Shown here: in pieces, positions 8,908 to 45,238 of the stretch
Position numbering within the stretch: position 1 is the first letter of the stretch
How the letters are laid out: each line of letters starts with the position of its first letter
Source of the DNA: Chloroflexota bacterium
Lineage (GTDB): Bacteria; Chloroflexota; UBA11872; VXOZ01
Direction: 5' to 3'
Assembly (NCBI GenBank): GCA_028874195.1
Contig: JAPPLM010000050.1
Coordinates: 1 to 54,119 of the forward strand
Length of the DNA stretch: 54,119 nucleotides
Translations under genes and position numbers: made by a program
Notes under the pieces: generated by a model
Seen by the model: only the letters and a program-made list of their open reading frames with translations
Databases searched by the model: none
What the model was told of the DNA's origin: nothing

Positions 8908-9496
8908 GCGAATGCGGTTACGCTGTTGAAAAGTACTCGCTCGTGTTGGTTTGTGAATGCTGATGTAGGTGGTAGCGCGGGGGCTAGTTCCCCCGCATCA
9001 TGGCACAGTGCGCGTATTGGGAAGAGAAGATGGATTCCCGTTTTCACGGGAATGACGGAGCGTAGCGCGGGGTCTAGTTCCCGTTTCAATGCACAGAGCG
9101 TGAGCTGGGAAGAGCAGATGGATTCCGCGCCCCGGCACGGGGCGAGTTTTCACGGGAGTGACGGGTATTAGTATTGCTCTTCTCTTTGTAGCGCGGGGGC
9201 TTGTCCCCCGCTCTTCGACGGGAAAGCGGTATTCATACTCTGGTCGGCTTAGGTATAGAGGCAAGTTGTAGATGAATTTCAAGTCTTGCTCCGCAGACCA
9301 CCGCTTGTTCTTTGGCCCGGGAAGACTGGATTCCGGCTTTCGCCGGAATGACCGAGTCCGTTGTGCTATTTTCATGGAAATGACGGAACCGGGCGAGGGC
9401 CTACCTTCCGTTCCTTGACACAAGCGATTGAGACCACTTCGAACTGCGTGCTGCTTACGCTAGCACCACAGCCACTTCACAGGAAGAGAGACTACT
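8908..9496. repeat. Dense mosaic of short palindromic repeats
   Basis: This 589-base gap carries no gene. It holds three copies of a GTAGCGCGGGGGCT...CCCGC hairpin (8972-8996, 9062-9084, 9188-9211), alternating with class A palindromes (9031-9059 and 9327-9355). A third class A copy, at 9119-9163, is interrupted by a separate GC-rich hairpin (GCCCCGGCACGGGGC). The alternating order suggests repeated insertion and local duplication. The ribosome site of the next gene (GGAAGAGAG) lies at the right end. Confidence 0.8.
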
Positions 9497-12034
9497 TTGG
9501 CTAATTCAAAGCCTAGCGATAACGGTTGGACCGTCCGTCGGGCCGCCGTCATCGGCGCCGGCACCATGGGCGCGCAGATCGCGGCGTTGCTGGCCGGATT
9601 TGGCATTGAATGCGAATTGCTCGACCTACCGGACGCCGCAGGACGCGACCGGCGGGCGGAAGCCGCCCTGGATAAACTCGCCGCCATGCGGCCCTCGCCG
9701 CTTTTCAACCGTGACGACGCGACTCGCATCCGCCCCGGCAACGTGGCGGACCACGCCGGGCGCATTGCCGACTGTGATTGGGTCGTCGAGGCGGTTTTTG
9801 AAGACCTCAAAGTAAAACAAGAGCTATGGTCGGCATTGTCGCCCCACGTGCGGGATGACGCCATTGCCAGCACGAACACGTCCAGTATTCCCATCCATTC
9901 AATCGCGGACGTGCTGCCCGCAGACCTACGACAAAGGTTTCTTGGCGCGCACTTCTTCAATCCTCCCCGCTATCTCCGGCTCTTCGAGTTGATACCAACA
10001 GCGGAGACCGACCCTGCCGTCACGGCGGCGGTGCAGCGGTTCGGCAGCGAGACGCTGGGCAAGGGCTGTGTCGTTGCCCATGACGTGCCGGGCTTCGTGG
10101 GCAATCGCATCGGGCTCTATGTCCTGGCGGAGACCATGCGCGCCATGCAGGAGTCAGGGCTGGGACCCGATGAGGTGGATAGCGTCACCGGGCCGCCGTT
10201 GGGGCGTCCCCGCAGCGCCACGTTTCGGACCCTCGACCTGATCGGCCTGGATGTCTACGTGGACATCTGCGACAAGCTACAGAGCGCGGTACCGGAGGCG
10301 TGGGAAAAAGAGGCATTCGCCGTGCCTGATTTCCTGCGCGAGATGGTCGCGCGCGGCTGGCTGGGCGAAAAGAGCGGCCAGGGTTTCTATAAGCGTGAGC
10401 AGGTAGACGGCCGGAGGGAGATTCTGGCGCTCGATCCGGCAACCCTCGCATACCGGCCGCAGCGCAAGCTCGACGCCCTCTCCCTGGCAGCCGCGCGCAA
10501 AGCCGAAGACAGCGGCGCCCGCATTGCCGCTCTCACGCAGGCCGACGGTGCCGCCGGCCGGCTCGCCTGGCGCATCCTCTCGCGGCTCTTTGCCTTTGCA
10601 GCCGCCAAGATACCCGAGGTGACCGACGAGATCGCCAGCATCGATAACGCCATGCGCTGGGGCTTCGCCTGGGAACTCGGGCCGTTTGAGACCTGGCACG
10701 CCATGGGCATTGCGCACACGGCAGACCGCATGGCGCGCGACGGCTTGGCCGTGCCGCCGTGGGTAACTGCCTTGGCGCAGCGGAGTGAACCGTTCTATCG
10801 CTACACCGCGAAGGGCACCGAACAGGCGACGCCCGCTAGCGCCTACGCGCATGTCTCCGGGAGCGAGAAGGAAATGTCATTGCCGTGGCTGCAAGCACAG
10901 GCCAAGCCGGTGCAATCACGCCCCGGCGCTACCCTCTACGACATCGGCGACGGCATTGCCTTCCTGGACACACACGGGCCGAAACAGACAATCGACAGTG
11001 ATGTGCTCGACATGATGGAACTGGCCGCGGAGCAAGTGCCGCCGGCGTTTCGGGGCCTCGTGCTGAGCAGTCACGTGCAGCCCAACTTCTGTGTCGGCGC
11101 GAACCTCGCGGTGATTTTGCAGGCGGCGCAGGAGCAGCAGTGGGACGTCATCGCAGACTTCATCCACAAGCTGCAGTACTCGCTGCTGGCGCTCAAGCGC
11201 ATGCCCGTGCCCTTTGTGACTGCCCTCTACGGACGGGCCTTGGGCGGAGGTATCGAGCTGGGTCTTTCGGCGCACCGCGTCGTCGCGGCGCGGGAGAGCT
11301 ACGTGGGTTTGGTGGAGACCGCCGTGGGTCTCGTGCCCGCCGGCGGCGGCTGCAAGGAACTGCTGCTGCGGATGGTGGAGACTTCGTCTGAAGACCGGAT
11401 GGATTCCCGTTTTCACGGGAATGACGGAAACCCAAATCGAGGAAGTGGCGGACACTCAACGCATGGGAATAGCGGACAAGATGATCATGGGATCGACACC
11501 CAGGATTCCCACAAGAATGACACACCCAGTCGTCACTCCCGCGAAAGCGGGAGTCCATCTGATGTGGCCGCAGCAGTGCAGCGTGCTCTTGAGACAATCC
11601 GTTTAGCCAGGTTGTCGCAGCACGCGCCGGATGCGATAGAGATCGGCTATCTGTGCGCGAGCGACATCATCGAAGCCAATCCCGATCACCTGCTCTACCG
11701 CGCCAAAGCGGCAGCCATCGCGCTGTCCGAAGATGCGCCGCTCCCCCAATCCCAGCCGGCGCAACTCCCCGTGCTCGGCGCAGACGGACGCGACACGCTG
11801 GTCGCGCCGGTTGAGGAACTGCTGCGCAAGGAAAAGGCCACGGCTCACGACCTCACGCTTGCCCGGAAGCTCGCCCATATCCTCACCGGCTGCGACGCGC
11901 CGCCCGGCACACTGGCTACCGAGGAACACATTCTCGACCTGGAGCGCGAGGCATTCGTAAGCCTTTGCGGCGAGCCCAAGAGCCAAGACCGCATCGCTCA
12001 TGTCCTCAAAACCGGCAAGCCCCTACGCAACTAA
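9497..12034 (+). CDS. fadN: FadN-like 3-hydroxyacyl-CoA dehydrogenase/enoyl-CoA hydratase fusion
   Basis: The start is a TTG at 9497, after GGAAGAGAG. The N-terminal dehydrogenase half has the NAD loop VIGAGTMGAQIA near residue 20, the catalytic-site segment GAHFFNPPRY and a C-terminal dehydrogenase domain to about residue 400. The C-terminal crotonase half keeps both glutamates (GGGIEL and GLVETAVG). The protein ends in the family's characteristic LEREAFVSLCGEPKSQ...LKTGKPLRN. It would carry out the hydration and dehydrogenation steps of fatty-acid beta-oxidation. It is 845 residues against roughly 790 expected, because about 57 residues (roughly 632-688) derive from palindromic repeat DNA inserted in frame. 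No thiolase or acyl-CoA dehydrogenase gene is adjacent. Confidence 0.9.
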   Translation: MANSKPSDNGWTVRRAAVIGAGTMGAQIAALLAGFGIECELLDLPDAAGRDRRAEAALDKLAAMRPSPLFNRDDATRIRPGNVADHAGRIADCDWVVEAVFEDLKVKQELWSALSPHVRDDAIASTNTSSIPIHSIADVLPADLRQRFLGAHFFNPPRYLRLFELIPTAETDPAVTAAVQRFGSETLGKGCVVAHDVPGFVGNRIGLYVLAETMRAMQESGLGPDEVDSVTGPPLGRPRSATFRTLDLIGLDVYVDICDKLQSAVPEAWEKEAFAVPDFLREMVARGWLGEKSGQGFYKREQVDGRREILALDPATLAYRPQRKLDALSLAAARKAEDSGARIAALTQADGAAGRLAWRILSRLFAFAAAKIPEVTDEIASIDNAMRWGFAWELGPFETWHAMGIAHTADRMARDGLAVPPWVTALAQRSEPFYRYTAKGTEQATPASAYAHVSGSEKEMSLPWLQAQAKPVQSRPGATLYDIGDGIAFLDTHGPKQTIDSDVLDMMELAAEQVPPAFRGLVLSSHVQPNFCVGANLAVILQAAQEQQWDVIADFIHKLQYSLLALKRMPVPFVTALYGRALGGGIELGLSAHRVVAARESYVGLVETAVGLVPAGGGCKELLLRMVETSSEDRMDSRFHGNDGNPNRGSGGHSTHGNSGQDDHGIDTQDSHKNDTPSRHSRESGSPSDVAAAVQRALETIRLARLSQHAPDAIEIGYLCASDIIEANPDHLLYRAKAAAIALSEDAPLPQSQPAQLPVLGADGRDTLVAPVEELLRKEKATAHDLTLARKLAHILTGCDAPPGTLATEEHILDLEREAFVSLCGEPKSQDRIAHVLKTGKPLRN
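11400..11557. repeat. Palindromic repeats inserted in frame within fadN
   Basis: Two class A repeats in opposite orientation (11400-11428 and 11531-11557) flank about 100 bases of low-complexity DNA. All of it is read through without a stop as [13 protein letters not shown]...[13 protein letters not shown]. The flanking native protein resumes at VAAAVQRALETIRLAR, which matches the FadN family. The insert has a codon count divisible by three. Confidence 0.85.
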
Positions 12035-12100: not shown

Positions 12101-15100
12101 ATGAAGAGCTGCCTAAGCAATCTACGCTTGTTGGCGGTGGCGCTGGCGGTGCTCCTTCCGTTGGCAATGATCTCGCAGACTGGAGTACAGGCGGCCACGT
12201 CCCGCGCGGATGATACGGATCGTGACGTTCTCGTCGCACTTTACTCTGTTACCGACGGCGCGAGATGGGCCAACAACGCCAACTGGCTGAGCGATGCGCC
12301 TCTGGGCCAGTGGTACGGCGTCACAACGGACGACAGCGGCCGTGTCACGGCGCTGGACCTTGCCGGCAACAATCTGCGCGGCGAGATGCCGTCCGCCCTC
12401 GGTAATCTGGCCGCACTCAGGAAACTGGACCTCGCCGGCAATTGGCTGGAAGGCGAGTTGCCGGCCGCACTGGGCGAGCTACAGAGCCTGGGCATCCTGG
12501 ACTTTTCGTACAACTGGCTGGAGGGCGAGATCCCCGCTGCGTTGGGCAGTCTCACCAACCTGTTGGAGTTGTACCTTACCGACAACCGTCTGCGCGGAGA
12601 GATACCGTCAACGCTTGGCAACCTTGCCAAGCTGGAAGTGCTGGCGCTATCAAACAACCGGTTGAACGGAGAGATTCCCGCTGCGCTTGGCAACTTAACC
12701 AACTTGAGCATTCTGAGTCTCTGGGGCAACGAACTGGAAGGTGAGATACCGCCCGCATTGGGCCGTCTTGCCAATCTGCAAGAGCTGTATCTCTCGGAAA
12801 ACCAATTGAGCGGAGAGATTCCTGACGCGCTTGGCGAACTCGCCAACCTCCAGTGGCTGCGCCTGTCGTTCAATCAACTGAAAGGCTGCGTGCCAGAGGG
12901 CGTGGGCGCAGTACCACGGCACGATTTTCCGGTGCTCGGTCTGAAGTTTTGTGCTGTCAAGAAGGATAGGGCCGCGCTGGTCGCGCTCTATACAGCCATG
13001 AACGGCGCCAACTGGAAGAATAACCACAACTGGCTGAGCGACGCGCCCATCGGCGAATGGCACGGCGTCACCACCGATCAAGACGGCCGCGTTACGGCGC
13101 TCAACCTTTACGAAAACAATCTAAGCGGTGAGATACCGCCCGAAATCGGCGACCTGAGGCACCTGACAGTGCTCAAGCTGTCGCAAAATCAGATCGGCGG
13201 TAGAATTCCCGACAGGCTGGGTGACCTTACAGACCTTGTGGTGCTGCAACTTTCGAACAACCAATTGAGCGGAGACCTCCCAGCTTCCTTAGGCAAGCTC
13301 GGAGAACTGTTCGAGTTATCCCTCTCGCGCAACCAGCTAAGCGGCGAAATCCCTTCCACCCTTGGCAATCTTGCAAACTTGACAATTCTGAATCTCTGGG
13401 CTAACCGGCTTAGCGGAGAGATACCCGCCACGCTTGGCAACCTCGCCAACCTAGAACAACTTTTCTTAAATGAGAATGACTTTACCGGTCAGATACCACC
13501 GACGCTTGGCGATCTCACCAACTTAAAGAAACTGTACCTTAGGGAGAATGAGCTGACTGGTGCCATACCTCCTGAACTGGGCGGTCTCGCCAACTTGGAG
13601 GAGTTGGACCTGTCCGACAATCGTCTCAGCGGTGAAGTCCCTACGGAGTTCGCCAATCTCTTGAATCTCAAACGGCTGGATCTCTCGTACAGCGGCTTAG
13701 GTGGTGAACTCCCTGCTTGGATTGGCAAACTTGCTAAGCTCGAAAACTTAGACCTGTCCGACAACGAAATTAGCGGAGAAATTCCTGCCGAGCTGGGCAA
13801 CCTAACCGGCTTGGTGAGGCTGCGACTTGGAGGCAACCGGCTGCGCGGCAAGATCCCGGCTACCCTGGGAGATCTAGCCGAATTAGTACAACTATCGCTA
13901 TGGGATAACCAGTTGCGTGGGGAGATACCTGCCACTTTCGGCAACCTCGCCAATCTCGAGTCTCTTTCACTCTTTAGAAACCAATTGAGTGGGACCATTC
14001 CCCGCGAATTGGGGAAGCTAACGAGGCTCTATACGCTATACCTAGCGTACAACCAGTTGGATGGGTGCATTCCCGAGGGTCTTGAGGGGTTGCTCAACAG
14101 TGACTTATCGTGGTACGGCCTTCCGATCTGCGGAGGTCCGGTCACGCTTAAGGAGGATCCGGCGGACCGAGAGGCACTGGTAGCCCTCTATAAGGCCACT
14201 GATGGTTCCAATTGGCGCAAGAGCGACAATTGGCTGAGTGGCGCGCCAGTCGGCGAGTGGTACAACGTAACAACTGATAGCAACGGCCGAGTTAGGGCGC
14301 TGAATCTTGATGGAAATCGCTTAAGTGGTGAGATTCCGGCTGCGCTAGGTGCCTTATCCCACTTGGTCAGATTAGACCTCTCGAGCAACGACTTGCGGGG
14401 TGAGATTCCACCTGAAATCGGCAATCTTGCTAGCTTGGAATACCTAAGGCTAGGCAGTAACCAGTTGAGCGGACAGATACCTGCGGCGCTGGGTAACCTC
14501 ACCGGTCTGAAGATAGTGTTCCTCTGGCATAACCAACTGCAAGGGCCGATACCGGCATCGCTTGGCAACCTAATTAACATAGAGGAACTGTTTCTCAGTA
14601 CTAATCAGTTGAGCGGGGAGATACCATCTTCCTTGGGAAATCTATCCAAACTTGAACGGCTGGCTCTATTCGAGAATCGGTTAAGTGGAGAGATACCGGC
14701 CACTTTGGGCAACCTAGCCAACTTAGAACGTCTCCGTCTTGGGCACAATCAACTAAGCGGAGAGATTCCTCCTGAGCTTGGCAATCTTGCCAGTCTCTGT
14801 TGTATAGACCTCAGCCACAATCAGTTGAGCGGAGAAATACCTTTCGCGCTGGGCAATATTGAAAACCTGTGGCACGTGAATCTGACGCACAACCAGTTGA
14901 GTGGGCGATTACCAGCATTTCTCGGCGACATCGAGTGGCAAGGTAGCTTGATGCTGGCTCATAATCAGTTCACCGGATGCTTGCCCGATAAAGCGGTGAA
15001 GATTCGGGAAAACGACCTATCTTGGTATGATCTACCTTCTTGTGAGGCGCAGTCAGCAGAGAGAATTGCGCAGCGTGAGGCACTGGTGGCGCTTTACACG

Positions 15101-15814
15101 GCGACGAACGGTGAGAGTTGGACGAACAATACCAATTGGCTAAGCGATGCGCCGCTCGACGATTGGCATGGCGTCACTACAGATGAAGGCAGCCTCGTCA
15201 TAGCGCTGAATTTGGAGGACAACAACCTGAGCGGGGAGTTGCCGGCCGCTATCGGTGATCTCACACACCTGAAAGTGCTGTACTTGCCGCGTAACCGGTT
15301 GAAAGGAACGATACCCTCAACATTGGGCGACCTGTCAGATCTTACTGTGCTGAATCTTGCGGAGAACGCGTTGAGCGGTGAGTTGCCGTCAGAACTGGGT
15401 CACTTGACTGGCTTAGTAACGCTCAGTCTTCAGGAAAACCAACTGAGTGGAAGAATTCCCTCTGCGATGGGCAACCTCACAAATCTGAAAGGCCTTGATC
15501 TCTCCGGTAACGAATTGACCGCAGCAGTGCCAGCCGAATTCGGCAACCTCTACAACCTGGAACGCTTGGATCTCTCGGAAAACAGCTTAAGCGGCGCGAT
15601 ACCGCCTGAGCTTGGCAACCTTGCCAACCTGAAGGAACTGCATCTCGACAACAATCAACTAAGTGGCGCGATACCGCCAGAGCTGGCGAATCTTGCCAGC
15701 CTCGAACGCTTGAACCTGGCCCACAACCAATTCACGGAGTGTCTGCCCCAAGGCGTAATAGAGGTTTTGCACAATGATCTGTCTTGGTACAAACTGCCTA
15801 TCTGCGCGGAGTAG
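12101..15814 (+). CDS. Secreted four-module leucine-rich repeat protein
   Basis: The ATG at 12101 follows AGGAAAAGGG and opens a signal peptide of about 31 residues (core LAVALAVLLPLAMI). The 1237-residue protein has four modules. Each begins with a plant-type LRR cap (EALVALYxATxGxxW, NNxNWLSDAP, GVTTD; starts near nucleotides 12220, 12965, 14165 and 15070). Runs of 24-residue LRRs with the consensus LSGEIPxxLGNLxNLxxLxL follow, and most modules close with a Cys-containing cap such as CVPEGVG. Plant-type (LxGxIP) repeats form curved solenoids used in binding. There is no membrane anchor, so it is likely released or wall-associated. The near-identical units indicate growth by internal duplication. 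Ligand unknown. Confidence 0.9.
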   Translation: MKSCLSNLRLLAVALAVLLPLAMISQTGVQAATSRADDTDRDVLVALYSVTDGARWANNANWLSDAPLGQWYGVTTDDSGRVTALDLAGNNLRGEMPSALGNLAALRKLDLAGNWLEGELPAALGELQSLGILDFSYNWLEGEIPAALGSLTNLLELYLTDNRLRGEIPSTLGNLAKLEVLALSNNRLNGEIPAALGNLTNLSILSLWGNELEGEIPPALGRLANLQELYLSENQLSGEIPDALGELANLQWLRLSFNQLKGCVPEGVGAVPRHDFPVLGLKFCAVKKDRAALVALYTAMNGANWKNNHNWLSDAPIGEWHGVTTDQDGRVTALNLYENNLSGEIPPEIGDLRHLTVLKLSQNQIGGRIPDRLGDLTDLVVLQLSNNQLSGDLPASLGKLGELFELSLSRNQLSGEIPSTLGNLANLTILNLWANRLSGEIPATLGNLANLEQLFLNENDFTGQIPPTLGDLTNLKKLYLRENELTGAIPPELGGLANLEELDLSDNRLSGEVPTEFANLLNLKRLDLSYSGLGGELPAWIGKLAKLENLDLSDNEISGEIPAELGNLTGLVRLRLGGNRLRGKIPATLGDLAELVQLSLWDNQLRGEIPATFGNLANLESLSLFRNQLSGTIPRELGKLTRLYTLYLAYNQLDGCIPEGLEGLLNSDLSWYGLPICGGPVTLKEDPADREALVALYKATDGSNWRKSDNWLSGAPVGEWYNVTTDSNGRVRALNLDGNRLSGEIPAALGALSHLVRLDLSSNDLRGEIPPEIGNLASLEYLRLGSNQLSGQIPAALGNLTGLKIVFLWHNQLQGPIPASLGNLINIEELFLSTNQLSGEIPSSLGNLSKLERLALFENRLSGEIPATLGNLANLERLRLGHNQLSGEIPPELGNLASLCCIDLSHNQLSGEIPFALGNIENLWHVNLTHNQLSGRLPAFLGDIEWQGSLMLAHNQFTGCLPDKAVKIRENDLSWYDLPSCEAQSAERIAQREALVALYTATNGESWTNNTNWLSDAPLDDWHGVTTDEGSLVIALNLEDNNLSGELPAAIGDLTHLKVLYLPRNRLKGTIPSTLGDLSDLTVLNLAENALSGELPSELGHLTGLVTLSLQENQLSGRIPSAMGNLTNLKGLDLSGNELTAAVPAEFGNLYNLERLDLSENSLSGAIPPELGNLANLKELHLDNNQLSGAIPPELANLASLERLNLAHNQFTECLPQGVIEVLHNDLSWYKLPICAE

Positions 15815-24254: not shown

Positions 24255-24647
24255 GTCAGAGGCTTTTCGTCACTTGGAAGAAGATTCCGGTCTTGTTTAT
24301 GGTCACGGACCGCGCTCGTTCCTCCGATACCCACCGAGAGACCGTCATTCCGGCGAAATCCGGAATCTTGGATGTGGGCACACATACAGATCGTCTCTCC
24401 AATGCCACTGCTTCAACGTACGAAGATCGGGGCCAGAGTAGAGCACGAGTTTCGCCTAGACTCCGTCATTCCGGTGGAAGCCGGAATCCAGAGACACGTG
24501 GTTAGCAGGCCGAAGACGAGGCAGGAAGCTCCTTACCACCTTCTTTGCATCTTTACCTCAAAATGCAATAAGGGTGCCCGAGGTGGTTACCCAAGGGGGT
24601 ATTCGGATAAGTGATCCGTAGTGTATCGCCATGGCGACCCGCAGGTG
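24255..24647. other. Convergent intergenic region with two class A repeats
   Basis: Two palindromic repeats in the same orientation (24342-24367 and 24463-24490, CCGTCATTCCGG ... CCGGAATC) lie between the ends of the P-type ATPase and SRPBCC genes. No gene or intrinsic terminator is evident in the remainder. Confidence 0.65.
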
Positions 24648-31230: not shown

Positions 31231-31919
31231 GATCTAATAGTCTCGCGGAGGTAACGAGGATATTGTTGAGAACGCCGGCCGCAGGAGATACATTGTTTGC
31301 CGTGACAGGCGCATGCAGGCGTTTCTTCGCCCTAGCGGTAGTCCACATGATTCCAATTCGTTGGCGTGACAGTGGCGCTCCCTTGGCGTAGCCCGCCATT
31401 GAGACGCCGATAGAAGAAACACCGCCGGAAGCAGCGGCTCGTTCAATGCCGCTCTACCGCTTTGGCACACGTCGTCCGGCCGTCAATGGAATCGCTGCGA
31501 GAAGGAATACCCTTCTCTACTGGAAAGCCGCCAAAGGCGCGAGGCAACTACGTGCGCAATCGCGGCAGATTAACGAAAGGATGCACCTACTTGCTGGAGT
31601 ATGATTTTACCACAAGCAGCAGCCAGTGGGTAACGAGAGTTGGCGGGAATTAGTAGATATAGGCTTGTAGTCTTTGAGGGCAGTATTCTTGTCATTCCGA
31701 GCGCAGCGAGGAATCTAAAGAAGCTCCCGATTCTAGATTCTTCGTCGCGGAGTTTATCCTGAGCTTGCCGAAGGGCTCCTCAGAATGACAGTTGGGAGCT
31801 GGCTCATATCCAGAGACGGTCACGTGTCTTGCCTTTGCCCAACCCATGCCCGAGACTACTAGTTGCGGAGTTAGCCGGATTTGCTGTCGCGCAACCCGGT
31901 TTCGTCGCCAGGACCGCCG
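31231..31919. other. Long intergenic region without a convincing gene
   Basis: Short open frames in this 689-base stretch (for example 31462-31653) lack ribosome sites and resemble nothing I know. The only clear structure is the repeat at 31691-31790. Confidence 0.5.
31691..31790. repeat. Class B repeat pair with inverted ends
   Basis: The left part reads GTCATTCCGAGCGCAGCGAG then GAATCT. After a spacer come GATTCTTCGTCGC, a class C core (CTGAGCTTGCCGAAG) and the terminus CAGAATGACA, the inverse of the left end. Related copies lie at 40845-40957, 43673-43699 and 44949-44976. Confidence 0.7.
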
Positions 31920-37346: not shown

Positions 37347-40300
37347 CTATGAAGCGTGGGCTTTTTCCAACGCGCCGTCGCGTTCGAGCACTGCGCGCAG
37401 ATAGACGCCGGTGTAGGAGTGGGGCAGGTGAGCGAGCGTTTCCGGCGTGCCTTCGGCGACCATTTCGCCGCCGGCGTCACCGCCCTCGGGGCCGAGATCG
37501 ATCACCCAGTCCACGCACTTGATTACTTCCAGGTTGTGCTCGATCACGATCACCGTATTGCCGGTGTCCACCAGGCGTTGCAGCACCTCCAGCAGGCGTT
37601 CCACGTCGGCGAAGTGCAGGCCGGTGGTCGGCTCGTCCAGGATGTAGAGCGTGCGGCCGGTGGCGCGTTTGGATAGTTCGGCGGCCAGCTTGATGCGCTG
37701 TGCTTCGCCGCCGGAGAGCGTGGTGGCGGGCTGTCCCACGCGCATGTAGCCCAATCCCACGTCCACGAGCGTTCTGAGCTTGTTGTGAATGCTGGGGATG
37801 TTTTCGAAGAAAGCGTTTGCCTCTTCTATTGTGAGGTCGAGCACGTCGGCGATGGTCTTGCCCTTGTATGTGACCTCCAGCGCCTCGCGGTTGTAGCGCT
37901 TGCCTTCGCAGACCTCGCAAGGCACGTAGACGTCCGGCAGGAACTGCATCTCGATCTTGATGATGCCGTCTCCGCGGCAGGCCTCGCAGCGGCCGCCCTT
38001 GACATTAAAGGAGAAGCGCCCCGGTTTGTAGCCGCGCACACGCGCCTCCGGCGTCTTGGCAAAGATCTCGCGGATGGGCGTGAACGCGCCGGTATACGTG
38101 GCTGGATTCGAACGCGGCGTGCGCCCGATGGGCTGTTGATTGATATCGATGACTTTGTCGATGTTTTCCAGGCCCAGGATCGCGTCGTGGGGGCCGGGTC
38201 GCTCGCGGCTGTTGTAGATCTCCTGCGCCAGGCGGCGGTAGAGCACGTCGATAACCAGCGAACTCTTGCCGGAGCCGGATACGCCGGTCACGCCGATGAG
38301 CCGGCCCAGCGGGAAGTCCACGTCAATGCTCTTCAGGTTATTGGCGCGGGCGCCTTTGACGGTAATCCTCGCTCTTCCCGCAGGTTCTGAACTCGCCGCT
38401 GGCGTTCGCCCTGAGCCCTTTGCTCCCGTTCGTCCTGACCCTCCCGCAACCGTTCGCCCTGAGCCTGTCGAAGGGCCGCGCCGTTCCTGCGGCACCGGAA
38501 TTACCCGCTGACCCGTAAGATAGGCCGCAGTCAGCGATTCATCCACCACCATCACGTCTTCCAACGGCCCCGCCGCCACGACGCGGCCGCCGTGCTCGCC
38601 GGCGCCGGGCCCAATGTCGATCACGTGATCGGCAGCGCGGATCGTCTCCTCGTCGTGCTCCACCACCAGTACGGTATTGCCGAGGTCGCGCAGACCGTTC
38701 AGCGTTGCAATGAGTCGGCGATTATCGCGCTGGTGCAAGCCAATGGACGGCTCATCCAGAATGTAGAGCACGCCCACCAGACCGGAGCCGATCTGGGTGG
38801 CCAAACGGATGCGCTGGGCCTCGCCGCCAGAGAGCGTCGCGGTAGCGCGGTCCAGGGTGAGGTAGTCCAGCCCCACGTTTTCCAGGAAATGTAGCCGCGC
38901 CTCGATCTCCTTCAGAATCTGGCGTCCGATCAGGCGTTCCCGCTCGCTGAGCGGCAGCGCCTCGAACCACGCGCGGGCGTCCTTCACTGCATACGCAGTA
39001 ACTTGCGCGATGGTGTGGGCGTTGATGGTTACGGACAAGCTCTCCGGCTTCAGACGCGCCCCCCGGCAGGCGGGACAGGGCTGCACGGTCATGAAGCGCT
39101 CGATCTCCTGGCGCATGTAGTCGGAATCCGTCTCCTTGTAACGCCGCTGAAGGTTGGGAATCACCCCTTCAAAGTCCACCGTGAAGGTGCGCGTCTCGTC
39201 ACGCGCAGCCTTGACCGAGACCGGAATGCGCTCTTCCGTGCCGTTCAGCAGGATGTCGACGTGTTCTGTCGCCAGTTCCGCGACAGGAACGCGCAGGGAA
39301 AAGCCGTAGTGCGCCGCCACCGCCTTTACCACCTGGTAAAGGTAGCTGTCTTTGCTGGCAAGCCGCGACCACGGCAGAATGGCGCCTTCCAAAGGTGAGA
39401 GCCGCTTGTTCGGCACGATGAGGTCGGGGTCGAACACCATGGTCGTGCCGATGCCGGTGCAGTCCGGGCACGCGCCATGGGGACTATTGAAGGAAAACGT
39501 CCGCGGCTCCACCTCGCCGAGGGAGATGCCGCAGTGCACGCAGGCGAATTGCTCGGAGAAGAGGAGTTCCACCGGTCCGGGACTGGCGTCGACATCTTGT
39601 CCGTCATTCCCGCGCAAGCGGGAATCCATCTTCTCTTCGCTTGCGTCAATGGGGGTGCCCATTGCTTCCCCGTCGGATGGAATCCCGCTTTCGCGGGAGT
39701 GACGGCTGGGCGTCTTTTCGCCGTCGCCGGCATGAAGACCGGATGGATTCCGGCTTTCGCCCGAATGACGGCCAGTCGGCTTCCCGTCTTCTCCGTCATT
39801 CCCGCTAACGCGGGAATCCATTTTTTTGTCATTCCCGCTCTCTCCGTCATTACCGTGAAAACGGGAATCCATCTTCTCTTCGCTTGCGTCAATGGGGGTG
39901 CCCATTGCTTCCCCGTCGGATGGAATCCCGCTTTCGCGGGAGTGACGGCTGGGTGTGTTCTCGCCGCCGGCATGAAGACCGGATGGATTCCGGCTTTCGC
40001 CGGAATGACGGTCCAAGAGGCCCTCGCCTTCGCGGGTGTGACGCTCGGCGCCGTCCACAATCACCACCCGCACCACGCTGGAACCCAGACGCAATGCCGT
40101 CTCCAGCGAATCCGCCACCCGTGCCTTATCCGTCTCGCCGCCGCGGTTCACCAGCCGGTCCACCACGATCTCGATGGTGTGCTGCTTGTAGCGGTCGAGG
40201 GCGGGCGTCTCGTCCAGGTCGTAAACGGTGCCGTCCACGCGGACGCGCACGTAGCCCGCTTGCCGCGCGTCCTCGAACACCTGCCGGTACTCGCCTTTGC

Positions 40301-40778
40301 GGTCCTGCACGATGGGCGCCAGGATCATGTAGCGCGTGCCGTCGGGCAGGTCGAGCAGCGTATCCACCATCTGCTGGACGGTCTGCTGGGAAATCTCACG
40401 ACCGCATTCCGGGCAGTGCGGCACGCCGATGCGTGCGAAGAGCAGGCGCAGGTAGTCGTATACTTCCGTGACCGTGCCGACCGTAGAGCGCGGGTTGCGG
40501 CTGGCGCCCTTCTGGTCGATGGATATAGCGGGAGAGAGGCCGTCGATGTGGTCCACGTCCGGCTTTTCCAGCATGCCGAGGAACTGGCGGGCGTAGGCCG
40601 AGAGCGATTCCACGTAGCGCCGCTGCCCTTCGGCGAAGATGGTATCAAAGGCCAGGCTCGACTTTCCGGAACCGGAGAGCCCGGTAATGACCACCAGCTT
40701 CTCGCGGGGGATGTCGAGGTCGATGTTCTTCAGGTTGTGTTCGCGCGCGCCGCGGATGCGGATGTACTCTTCAGCCAT
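37347..40778 (-). CDS. uvrA: UvrABC excinuclease subunit A with repeat-derived insertions
   Basis: All UvrA landmarks are present. Walker A sites are GLSGSGKSS near residue 34 and GVSGSGKSS in the second half; both LSGGEAQRI signatures are present, and both Walker B ends ([15 protein letters not shown] and [15 protein letters not shown]). Zinc motifs FACVHCG...CPDC and CEACRGDG...CEVCEGKR are also intact. It recognises bulky DNA damage and loads UvrB. It has 1143 residues against about 950 usual. About 155 residues (roughly 245-400) come from palindromic repeat DNA placed between the UvrB-binding domain and [10 protein letters not shown]. About 30 more (PSTGSGRT repeats) come from class C repeats before the second ATPase half. 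Both keep the frame, so the enzyme is probably functional. Confidence 0.95.
38398..38480. repeat. Class C repeats inserted in frame in uvrA
   Basis: Three or four degenerate copies of CGTTCGCCCTGAGCC, the last followed by TGTCGAAGGGC, are arranged in tandem and read on the minus strand as [25 protein letters not shown]. They sit between RVIPVPQER and [12 protein letters not shown], where the family has only a short linker. Confidence 0.8.
39580..40045. repeat. Eight class A palindromes and a 240-base duplication in uvrA
   Basis: Palindromic units start at about 39601, 39677, 39744, 39793, 39844, 39921, 39984 plus a weaker one at 40025. A block including CTTCGCTTGCGTCAATGGGG and the two following palindromes occurs twice, at about 39620-39772 and 39863-40013. 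The copies are nearly identical and offset by 240-243 bases. On the minus strand the tract reads as peptides such as [15 protein letters not shown] and [10 protein letters not shown] without any stop. Confidence 0.9.
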
Positions 40779-41153
40779 GGGGGTATTGGTTTGCCTCTAC
40801 TGGCGCTGCATGAGGTATGCAGCATCACGGCGCTGCCACTCGTTGTCACTCCGAGCGCAGCGAGGAATCTAGGGTGCTAGGGCTACGAACTGCGTAGAGC
40901 ATGGCTCTAGATTCCGCGCTCTTAGCGACACTCCGCTACGCTCCGTTCGGAATGACATTTGGGTGGGGCAATGATGTGCCTAGCAGTCTCGCGAATCAGT
41001 CTCCATACTACCACGATGCGCCCCAATCAGAGCAGTCCATTGACACGCAATGCTACATTACAATACCCTTAGCGCAAGCGGAGGCGTGTATGGGCACGCC
41101 CAAGGCGCAGCGGGGCTATAGCCCCCCACCCCCGCCTAGAGAAAGGAACGGTC
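40779..41153. other. Divergent intergenic region with class B repeat
   Basis: No gene is supported. A class B pair spans 40845-40957: TGTCACTCCGAGCGCAG on the left and the inverted end CGTTCGGAATGACA on the right. TTGACA at 41040-41045 could be the -35 for the next gene, but no -10 sits at 17 bases (TACAAT at 41059 is only 13 away). An AGAAAGGAA ribosome site precedes the ATG at 41154. Confidence 0.5.
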
Positions 41154-43510: not shown

Positions 43511-43895
43511 GGCGGTCTTCCTTGTCTGTGTGGGGTGCTGGCTGTTCTACGCGGATTTGTTGACACTGATTATACATCACCACGTTGAGTAGTCCGTTCA
43601 CACTTCGACCCTTCGACACGCTCAGGGCGAACGGATGATACTGCGCGACAGCACCCTTGCAAACACCCCCTTAGATTCCTCGCTCCGCTCGGCATGACAG
43701 TGGAAGTCATCCTGCCGCCGCTTCTGAAGGAAGTTTCGCGCTCAATAGCACGCCAATGCAACTGCACAGGCGTGGATCACCGTCTCTCCATTCCTGTGGC
43801 CTCTCATTCCGCTCGTGGTACGATACAAGTGTATAGAGCGGCTGTAGGCTACGCGCGAGCATTCGGCAAAGGCCTTGGCAAGCACAGGAGAAAAC
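43511..43895. repeat. Intergenic region with class C and class B repeats
   Basis: A class C element (43593-43635, TCCGTTCACACTTCGACC through GAACGGA) is followed by a class B copy (43673-43699, AGATTCCTCGCTCCGCTCGG then CATGACA). The right-hand 190 bases contain no recognisable gene. AGGAG sits just before the ATG of the next gene. Confidence 0.6.
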
Positions 43896-44819: not shown

Positions 44820-45238
44820 GAAGATACGTCCGCTGTGAGTACTGGGGCAGCGGTAGAAGAGCATACGGACGAGCAGATTAGTATTTACAACGGGGAAGGC
44901 AAGGCTCGATAGGCTTCATAGCAACGATTAGGTTCTGTGGACATTCAATGTCATTCCGAGCGCAAGCAAGGAATCTCAAGCGTTTCGCTCCTCACGGGCG
45001 GAAGAAAGACGATTGACAAGGATACCGTTTTGCATCTATGATGGTTTGCCGTGCTGTGCAGCGCCCTACTCTAGCACCGCAGGAAGATGGATTCCCGCTT
45101 TCGCGGGAATGACGGCAATAGTGTAAACACTCCCTAGTAGACTTTGGCCGCTGGGCGCAGGTTTGCAACCTGCGCTACCGGAGTGATTTCGCTTGGGCAG
45201 GGGCGCACTTCGCGCCTTAAGCAAGAGGAAAGAGATAC
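44820..45238. repeat. Intergenic region with class A, B and F repeats
   Basis: Three different palindromes occur in 230 bases: class B at 44949-44976, class A at 45088-45115 (GATTCCCGCTTTCGCGGGAA) and a GCGCAGGTTTGCAACCTGCG hairpin at 45155-45175. No gene is supported. The coaX ribosome site (AAGAGGAAAGAG) lies at the right end. Confidence 0.7.

Follow-up and report, generated by a model that had tools for sequence, protein, structure and literature searches.

The window, the whole stretch of 54,119 nucleotides that was analysed, carries on its forward strand a gene for a FadN-type 3-hydroxyacyl-CoA dehydrogenase/enoyl-CoA hydratase (9497–12034; 845 aa), assigned from Pfam, NCBIfam and an AlphaFold model. 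The Pfam domains are 3HCDH_N (residues 16–196), 3HCDH (199–299) and ECH_1 (516–627), which is the order expected of FadN and FadB, the crotonase domain coming last. The top NCBIfam model, NF052272 (FadB/crotonase), is an exception-type model for staphylococci, and the score of 537 bits falls short of its own cut-off of 999. The product is therefore called 'FadN-like' here rather than given as a named protein. Adjoining the gene downstream (12101–15814, forward strand) is one for a 1237-aa leucine-rich-repeat protein built of 72-bp repeats. An Rfam scan of the window found nothing but one tRNA.

Two palindromic repeat units lie in opposite orientation within the fadN reading frame, 104 nt apart and each with a CGTC tag at its inner end. 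The upstream unit (11400–11426, reverse strand), an exact match to the unit pattern, reads TGGATTCCCGTTTTCACGGGAATGACG on the forward strand and supplies 10 residues in frame (635–644). It forms part of a longer, 39-nt match with an intergenic unit at 9021–9059 and with a unit in uvrA at 39843–39881. The downstream unit (11531–11557, forward strand) is the reverse complement of TGGACTCCCGCTTTCGCGGGAGTGACG and is translated as RHSRESGSPS (residues 679–688). The DNA between them is a degenerate 24-bp tandem array of five octapeptides (11414–11533, forward strand), recognized by autocorrelation and overlapping the inner edges of both units.

A sequence-only reading of this DNA had described two opposed repeats about 100 bases apart, inserted in frame in the crotonase region, with the conserved protein resuming directly behind them. 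The comparison with relatives agrees on each of these points: those outside the genus lack the insert, and the native sequence continues at once as VAAAVQRA..TIRLARLSQHA. The insert is slightly longer than that reading had it, at about 11393–11560 on the forward strand (residues about 633–688, from segment lengths and pLDDT), and the spacer, correctly sized, is the tandem array rather than featureless sequence. The segment from GCKELLLR to IRLARLSQHA has 93 residues here against 39–42 in most relatives outside the genus, so about 52 residues are extra. In the AlphaFold model (48-sequence alignment; mean pLDDT 88.6), residues 634–684 are the sole internal stretch with pLDDT below 50; this coincides with the insert and is bounded by confident helices at 618–632 and 687–702. 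As modelled, the insert is probably a tolerated, disordered surface loop or linker, and the enzyme that carries it would be active.

Unit class and genomic distribution

Read from the tag, the upstream unit has the structure CGTC-ATTCCCGT-GAAA-ACGGGAAT-CCA and the downstream unit CGTC-ACTCCCGC-GAAA-GCGGGAGT-CCA. This is the anatomy of the CGTC-1 REPs, a class that includes dRS3 of Neisseria and RPE-6 of Rickettsia and is defined by a CGTC tag, an 8-bp stem beginning 'almost invariably AT', a 4-nt loop and a CCA tail (Di Nocera et al. 2013, PMC3733652). Both fadN units end in an unpaired CGTC/GACG and have the 8-bp AT-stem, 4-nt loop and CCA tail, with one variation, a C-G rather than a T-A pair at stem position 2 of the downstream unit. 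The same study describes CGTC REPs as dispersed, as forming dimers, as having no associated transposase and as lying in some cases in frame inside genes, uvrA being a repeated target. On sequence features the fadN units thus fit CGTC-tagged REPs of the dRS3/RPE-6 type, for which in-frame copies in genes are already known. The case described here differs in having an array between the units, a site common to a whole genus and a host in the Chloroflexota; the phyla given for CGTC repeats are Proteobacteria, Chlorobi, Bacteroidetes, Spirochaetes and Thermotogae (PMC3733652).

A search of the 3.5-Mb genome with the unit pattern gave 109 copies, 58 and 51 on the two strands, and none with the reversed control, which places the units far above chance and disposes of a chance repeat. 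Across six members of the genus there are 34–109 copies per genome. Sites were studied through about 80 stretches around listed units: of 130 units examined, few fall within coding frames, the placement of most outside them coming from a simple codon-score test of limited power. Close pairs (n = 34) are led by the tags-outward (HH) arrangement that also predominates among CGTC-1 dimers (18, often 16–70 nt apart), followed by eight tags-inward and eight direct. The fadN pair is of the tags-inward (TT) type and so belongs to a minority. Several genera of the class are rich in CGTC units (relatives G007, G013, G015, G016, G020, G021, G025, G029 and G037), and none turned up in the other phylum-level genomes that were searched; the translated unit motifs had no match in a literature search. 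Three direct units of the minority ACTCCC/GGGAGT type, spaced by exactly 171 bp, lie near a contig end elsewhere in the genome (locus L201, contig C74, 69–440).

No CGTC units were found within about 1.5 kb of the Y1_Tnp matches (PF01797) at four loci (L041–L044), the check being confined to transposases of Y1 type. This agrees with the lack of an associated transposase gene in the CGTC-1 class. Mobilisation by RAYT was rejected, for such transposases are present in the genome but CGTC units are not beside them at the four loci, and the tag is CGTC rather than GTAG. The GTAG REPs that form REPtrons with RAYT transposases resemble the fadN units in being short, tagged palindromes with dimers, and they differ in their tag and in flanking transposases. 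They have a separate counterpart in this genome: a GTAG-tagged palindrome, GTAGCGCGGGGGCTTGTCCCC, stands on both sides of the Y1 match at three of the four loci (L041, L042 and L043), and occurs in the window at 8972, 9062, 9188 and 42649. These palindromes and Y1 transposases look like a RAYT/REPtron system. Another dispersed inverted repeat, TGTCATTCCGAGCGCAGCGAGGAATCTA, lies in the window at 31690–31718, 40844–40874 and 43669–43699.

The fadN insertion across the genus

Each of the six species sampled from the genus, G000 (the genome of the window) to G005, has repeat-derived sequence at the same fadN site. Four full-length orthologues, 75–85% identical, carry the insertion at the same place; in the fifth relative, G005, the contig begins at the downstream unit. 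Five of the six species retain this unit intact. The exception is G003, in which decay has left DGSPS in its place and the upstream unit carries a 30-bp duplication. No reading frame is broken, and each array is made up of whole octads. Outside the genus, relatives from many phyla mostly have 39–42 residues in the loop and no repeat insert. A comparable insertion of unrelated sequence throughout the family, which would have told against the sequence-only reading, is thus not what the alignment contains. A few outside relatives (some Acidobacteria and the nearest outgroup, L046) reach 54–59 residues with unrelated sequence, and inspection of the L046 insertion revealed no unit. The loop is, judging from these alignments, tolerant of length in FadN relatives. 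Among the genomes compared there was no close relative with an empty site, the nearest outgroup being 51% identical in protein sequence. A site common to six species and absent outside the genus implies that the insertion predates the diversification of the genus; by this comparison it is an old feature that belongs to the genus, not a recent accident.

The five octapeptides of the spacer in G000 are HGNDGNPN, RGSGGHST, HGNSGQDD, HGIDTQDS and HKNDTPSR. There are likewise five in G002, six in G001 and two each in G003 and G004. Autocorrelation at 24 nt is 0.52 in G000 and 0.51–0.58 in the three species with longer arrays (G000, G001 and G002), with p = 0.0002 in each case, the floor of the 5000 codon shuffles used. 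Periodicity is weaker in G004 (p = 0.024) and not significant in G003, both of which have short spacers. Because the array opens with a copy ([HR]GNDG...) that corresponds to the half of the upstream unit on its tag side, a half-unit appears to have seeded it. On this sequence resemblance the array was apparently started by CRCGGGAATGACGG, and it would have grown in place.

At the downstream unit, a run of 29 nt (11531–11559) is identical in the four complete orthologues that have both units; it is the longest such run in the gene, the next being 17 nt. G005 has the same 29 nt, so the run is identical in five of six species. Where the residue is invariant, the codon is identical in 9 of 10 cases in the downstream unit, compared with 207 of 544 (38%) in the flanks, a difference (Fisher p = 0.0012) that is suggestive only, since the ten codons were picked after the alignment had been seen. 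The upstream unit varies between species in both loop and stem, and includes a paired T-A/C-G difference.

In-frame units in uvrA and other genes

Within the window, in-frame units also occur in uvrA (37347–40778, reverse strand), at residues about 257–397. The cluster (39602–40010) contains units at 39602–39628 (reverse), 39678–39704 (forward), 39794–39820 (reverse), 39921–39947 (forward) and 39984–40010 (forward), a degenerate one at 39844–39876 (reverse) and others. In-frame CGTC units are found in uvrA of all six species of the genus, in varying number. In other genera of the class, the two uvrA genes with sequence reaching the insert region had a short loop and no units. A second uvrA loop, at residues about 755–800, is also variable and has repeats of PSTSSGRT type, and a GGNDGQ-type array was noticed by eye beside the units in uvrA of G003.

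Further in-frame units lie within the Pfam-matched regions of moeA and of a DUF2298 gene, and just past the main match in a Type-ISP gene. Probable additional cases are a methyltransferase-like gene (L142) and a membrane protein (L149), both identified by eye and lacking a Pfam match, an N6-methylase (L203) and the N-terminus of a glycosyltransferase (L151). The units in uvrA, moeA, DUF2298 and Type-ISP genes indicate that tolerance is general and that fadN is not special in this respect. The moeA gene of G000 (L181, contig C60, 200–1975) has its MoCF_biosynth domain interrupted in frame by over 100 extra residues, with CGTC units and a 9-bp repeat of GSPGSPGTP type.

The idea that new protein sequence can arise from palindromic repeats lying in frame has been put forward mostly for Rickettsia. 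The Rickettsia palindromic elements (RPE; Ogata 2002, Claverie and Ogata 2003, as cited in PMC3733652) are likewise palindromic repeats, inserted in frame into genes whose proteins appear to be functional. They differ from the present case in the organism and in that here a pair of units encloses a tandem array in an enzyme of beta-oxidation. What is new is a phylum outside the list in PMC3733652, a genus-wide common site in fadN, the octapeptide array, the invariant 29-nt unit and the genus-wide units of uvrA. At least two unrelated genes, fadN and uvrA, thus carry such inserts in six of six sampled species of an uncultured Chloroflexota genus. A next step is visible as well, for part of a unit appears to have been turned into a tandem octapeptide array. 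With these orthologues it can be tested directly whether repeats inside genes are merely tolerated or are kept for their sequence.

Origin and retention of the fadN insert

The reading that we consider likely is that of an old in-frame insertion of CGTC REPs. CGTC-tagged palindromes would have entered, in frame, a surface loop that tolerates differences in length in a beta-oxidation enzyme of FadN type, and the insertion would have been fixed before the genus diversified. Its retention would be due to its translation into a short, hydrophilic, disordered linker. The sequence enclosed by the units would then have evolved as an in-frame 24-bp minisatellite seeded by the upstream half-unit, and evolution of the array in place would account for the difference in octapeptide number (2 to 6) among species. 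The insert peptide most likely does nothing specific for the enzyme, and we infer that the insert is neutral. Two points go against this reading. The downstream unit is conserved in nucleotide sequence beyond coding need, which a neutral linker does not predict. In addition, two intergenic sites served as controls: for the one at 45088 four species yielded no orthologous unit, and for the one at 24340–24464 a same-orientation unit was present in one of five species, so that in-gene copies outlast these few intergenic ones.

The conservation of the downstream unit raises the alternative that the fadN units are kept by selection on nucleic acid, with the palindromes or a long mRNA hairpin binding something or tuning mRNA stability or translation. 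The downstream 29-nt palindrome, of which the same variant occurs in uvrA, would then be a functional element held invariant at the DNA or mRNA level while the DNA between the units was free to grow and shrink. We regard this as doubtful, though the invariant run in five species speaks for it. The insert mRNA folds better than shuffled sequences in the five complete orthologues (z −3.3 to −7.2), but hairpin potential follows automatically from two inverted units and is not independent evidence. In G000 and G004, moreover, an A in the upstream unit makes an A-C mismatch with the downstream unit, so that long-range pairing is imperfect. The exact ACTCCC/GGGAGT variant is confined in G001 and G002 to fadN and uvrA, and the fadN copy has not been overwritten by the far commoner ATTCCC/GGGAAT. 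The paired T-A/C-G change in the upstream stem is also in favour of this alternative, but it is probably a single event on the tree. In G003 the downstream palindrome has been lost and the gene is still open. Nor does uvrA add support of its own, since runs of that length are found in other parts of the gene, which is slowly evolving and has multiple units.

The sequence-only reading had suggested that the opposed copies mark a larger composite that may have gone in as one piece. This is unlikely. The second unit is kept in five of six species and the genome has many inverted pairs of units, as a composite would allow, but a query spanning 11380–11575 matched nowhere else in the genome except at the unit ends. 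A MITE or composite transposon would be expected as a whole element at more than one site, and here it is found at only one. Tags-inward pairs are the minority (8 of 34) and typical close pairs are tags-outward and more closely set. The spacer differs among species in length and in sequence and behaves as an array grown locally, and the four Y1-transposase loci checked have no CGTC units within about 1.5 kb. The two units, with a short spacer, may nevertheless have arrived together.

Gene conversion between copies, mainly those of fadN and uvrA, could in principle keep a unit constant without selection. The same 29-nt variant is present in fadN and uvrA of most species, and 53 nt around the unit in fadN of G000 match uvrA at 87%. 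We nonetheless hold conversion to be quite improbable. Just beyond the 29 nt, G000, G004 and G005 have T in fadN and C in uvrA, which would require any conversion tract to end precisely with the unit; uvrA of G000 has GGGATTCC rather than GGGAGTCC; and the majority variant never replaced the fadN copy.

The chance that the insertion is an artefact of assembly or binning is negligible: these are metagenome assemblies, repeats break contigs and that of G005 starts at a unit, but five assemblies with the complete gene share the insertion, their spacer differences are species-specific, and one of the five, G001, consists of nine contigs and has the gene on a contig of 200 kb.
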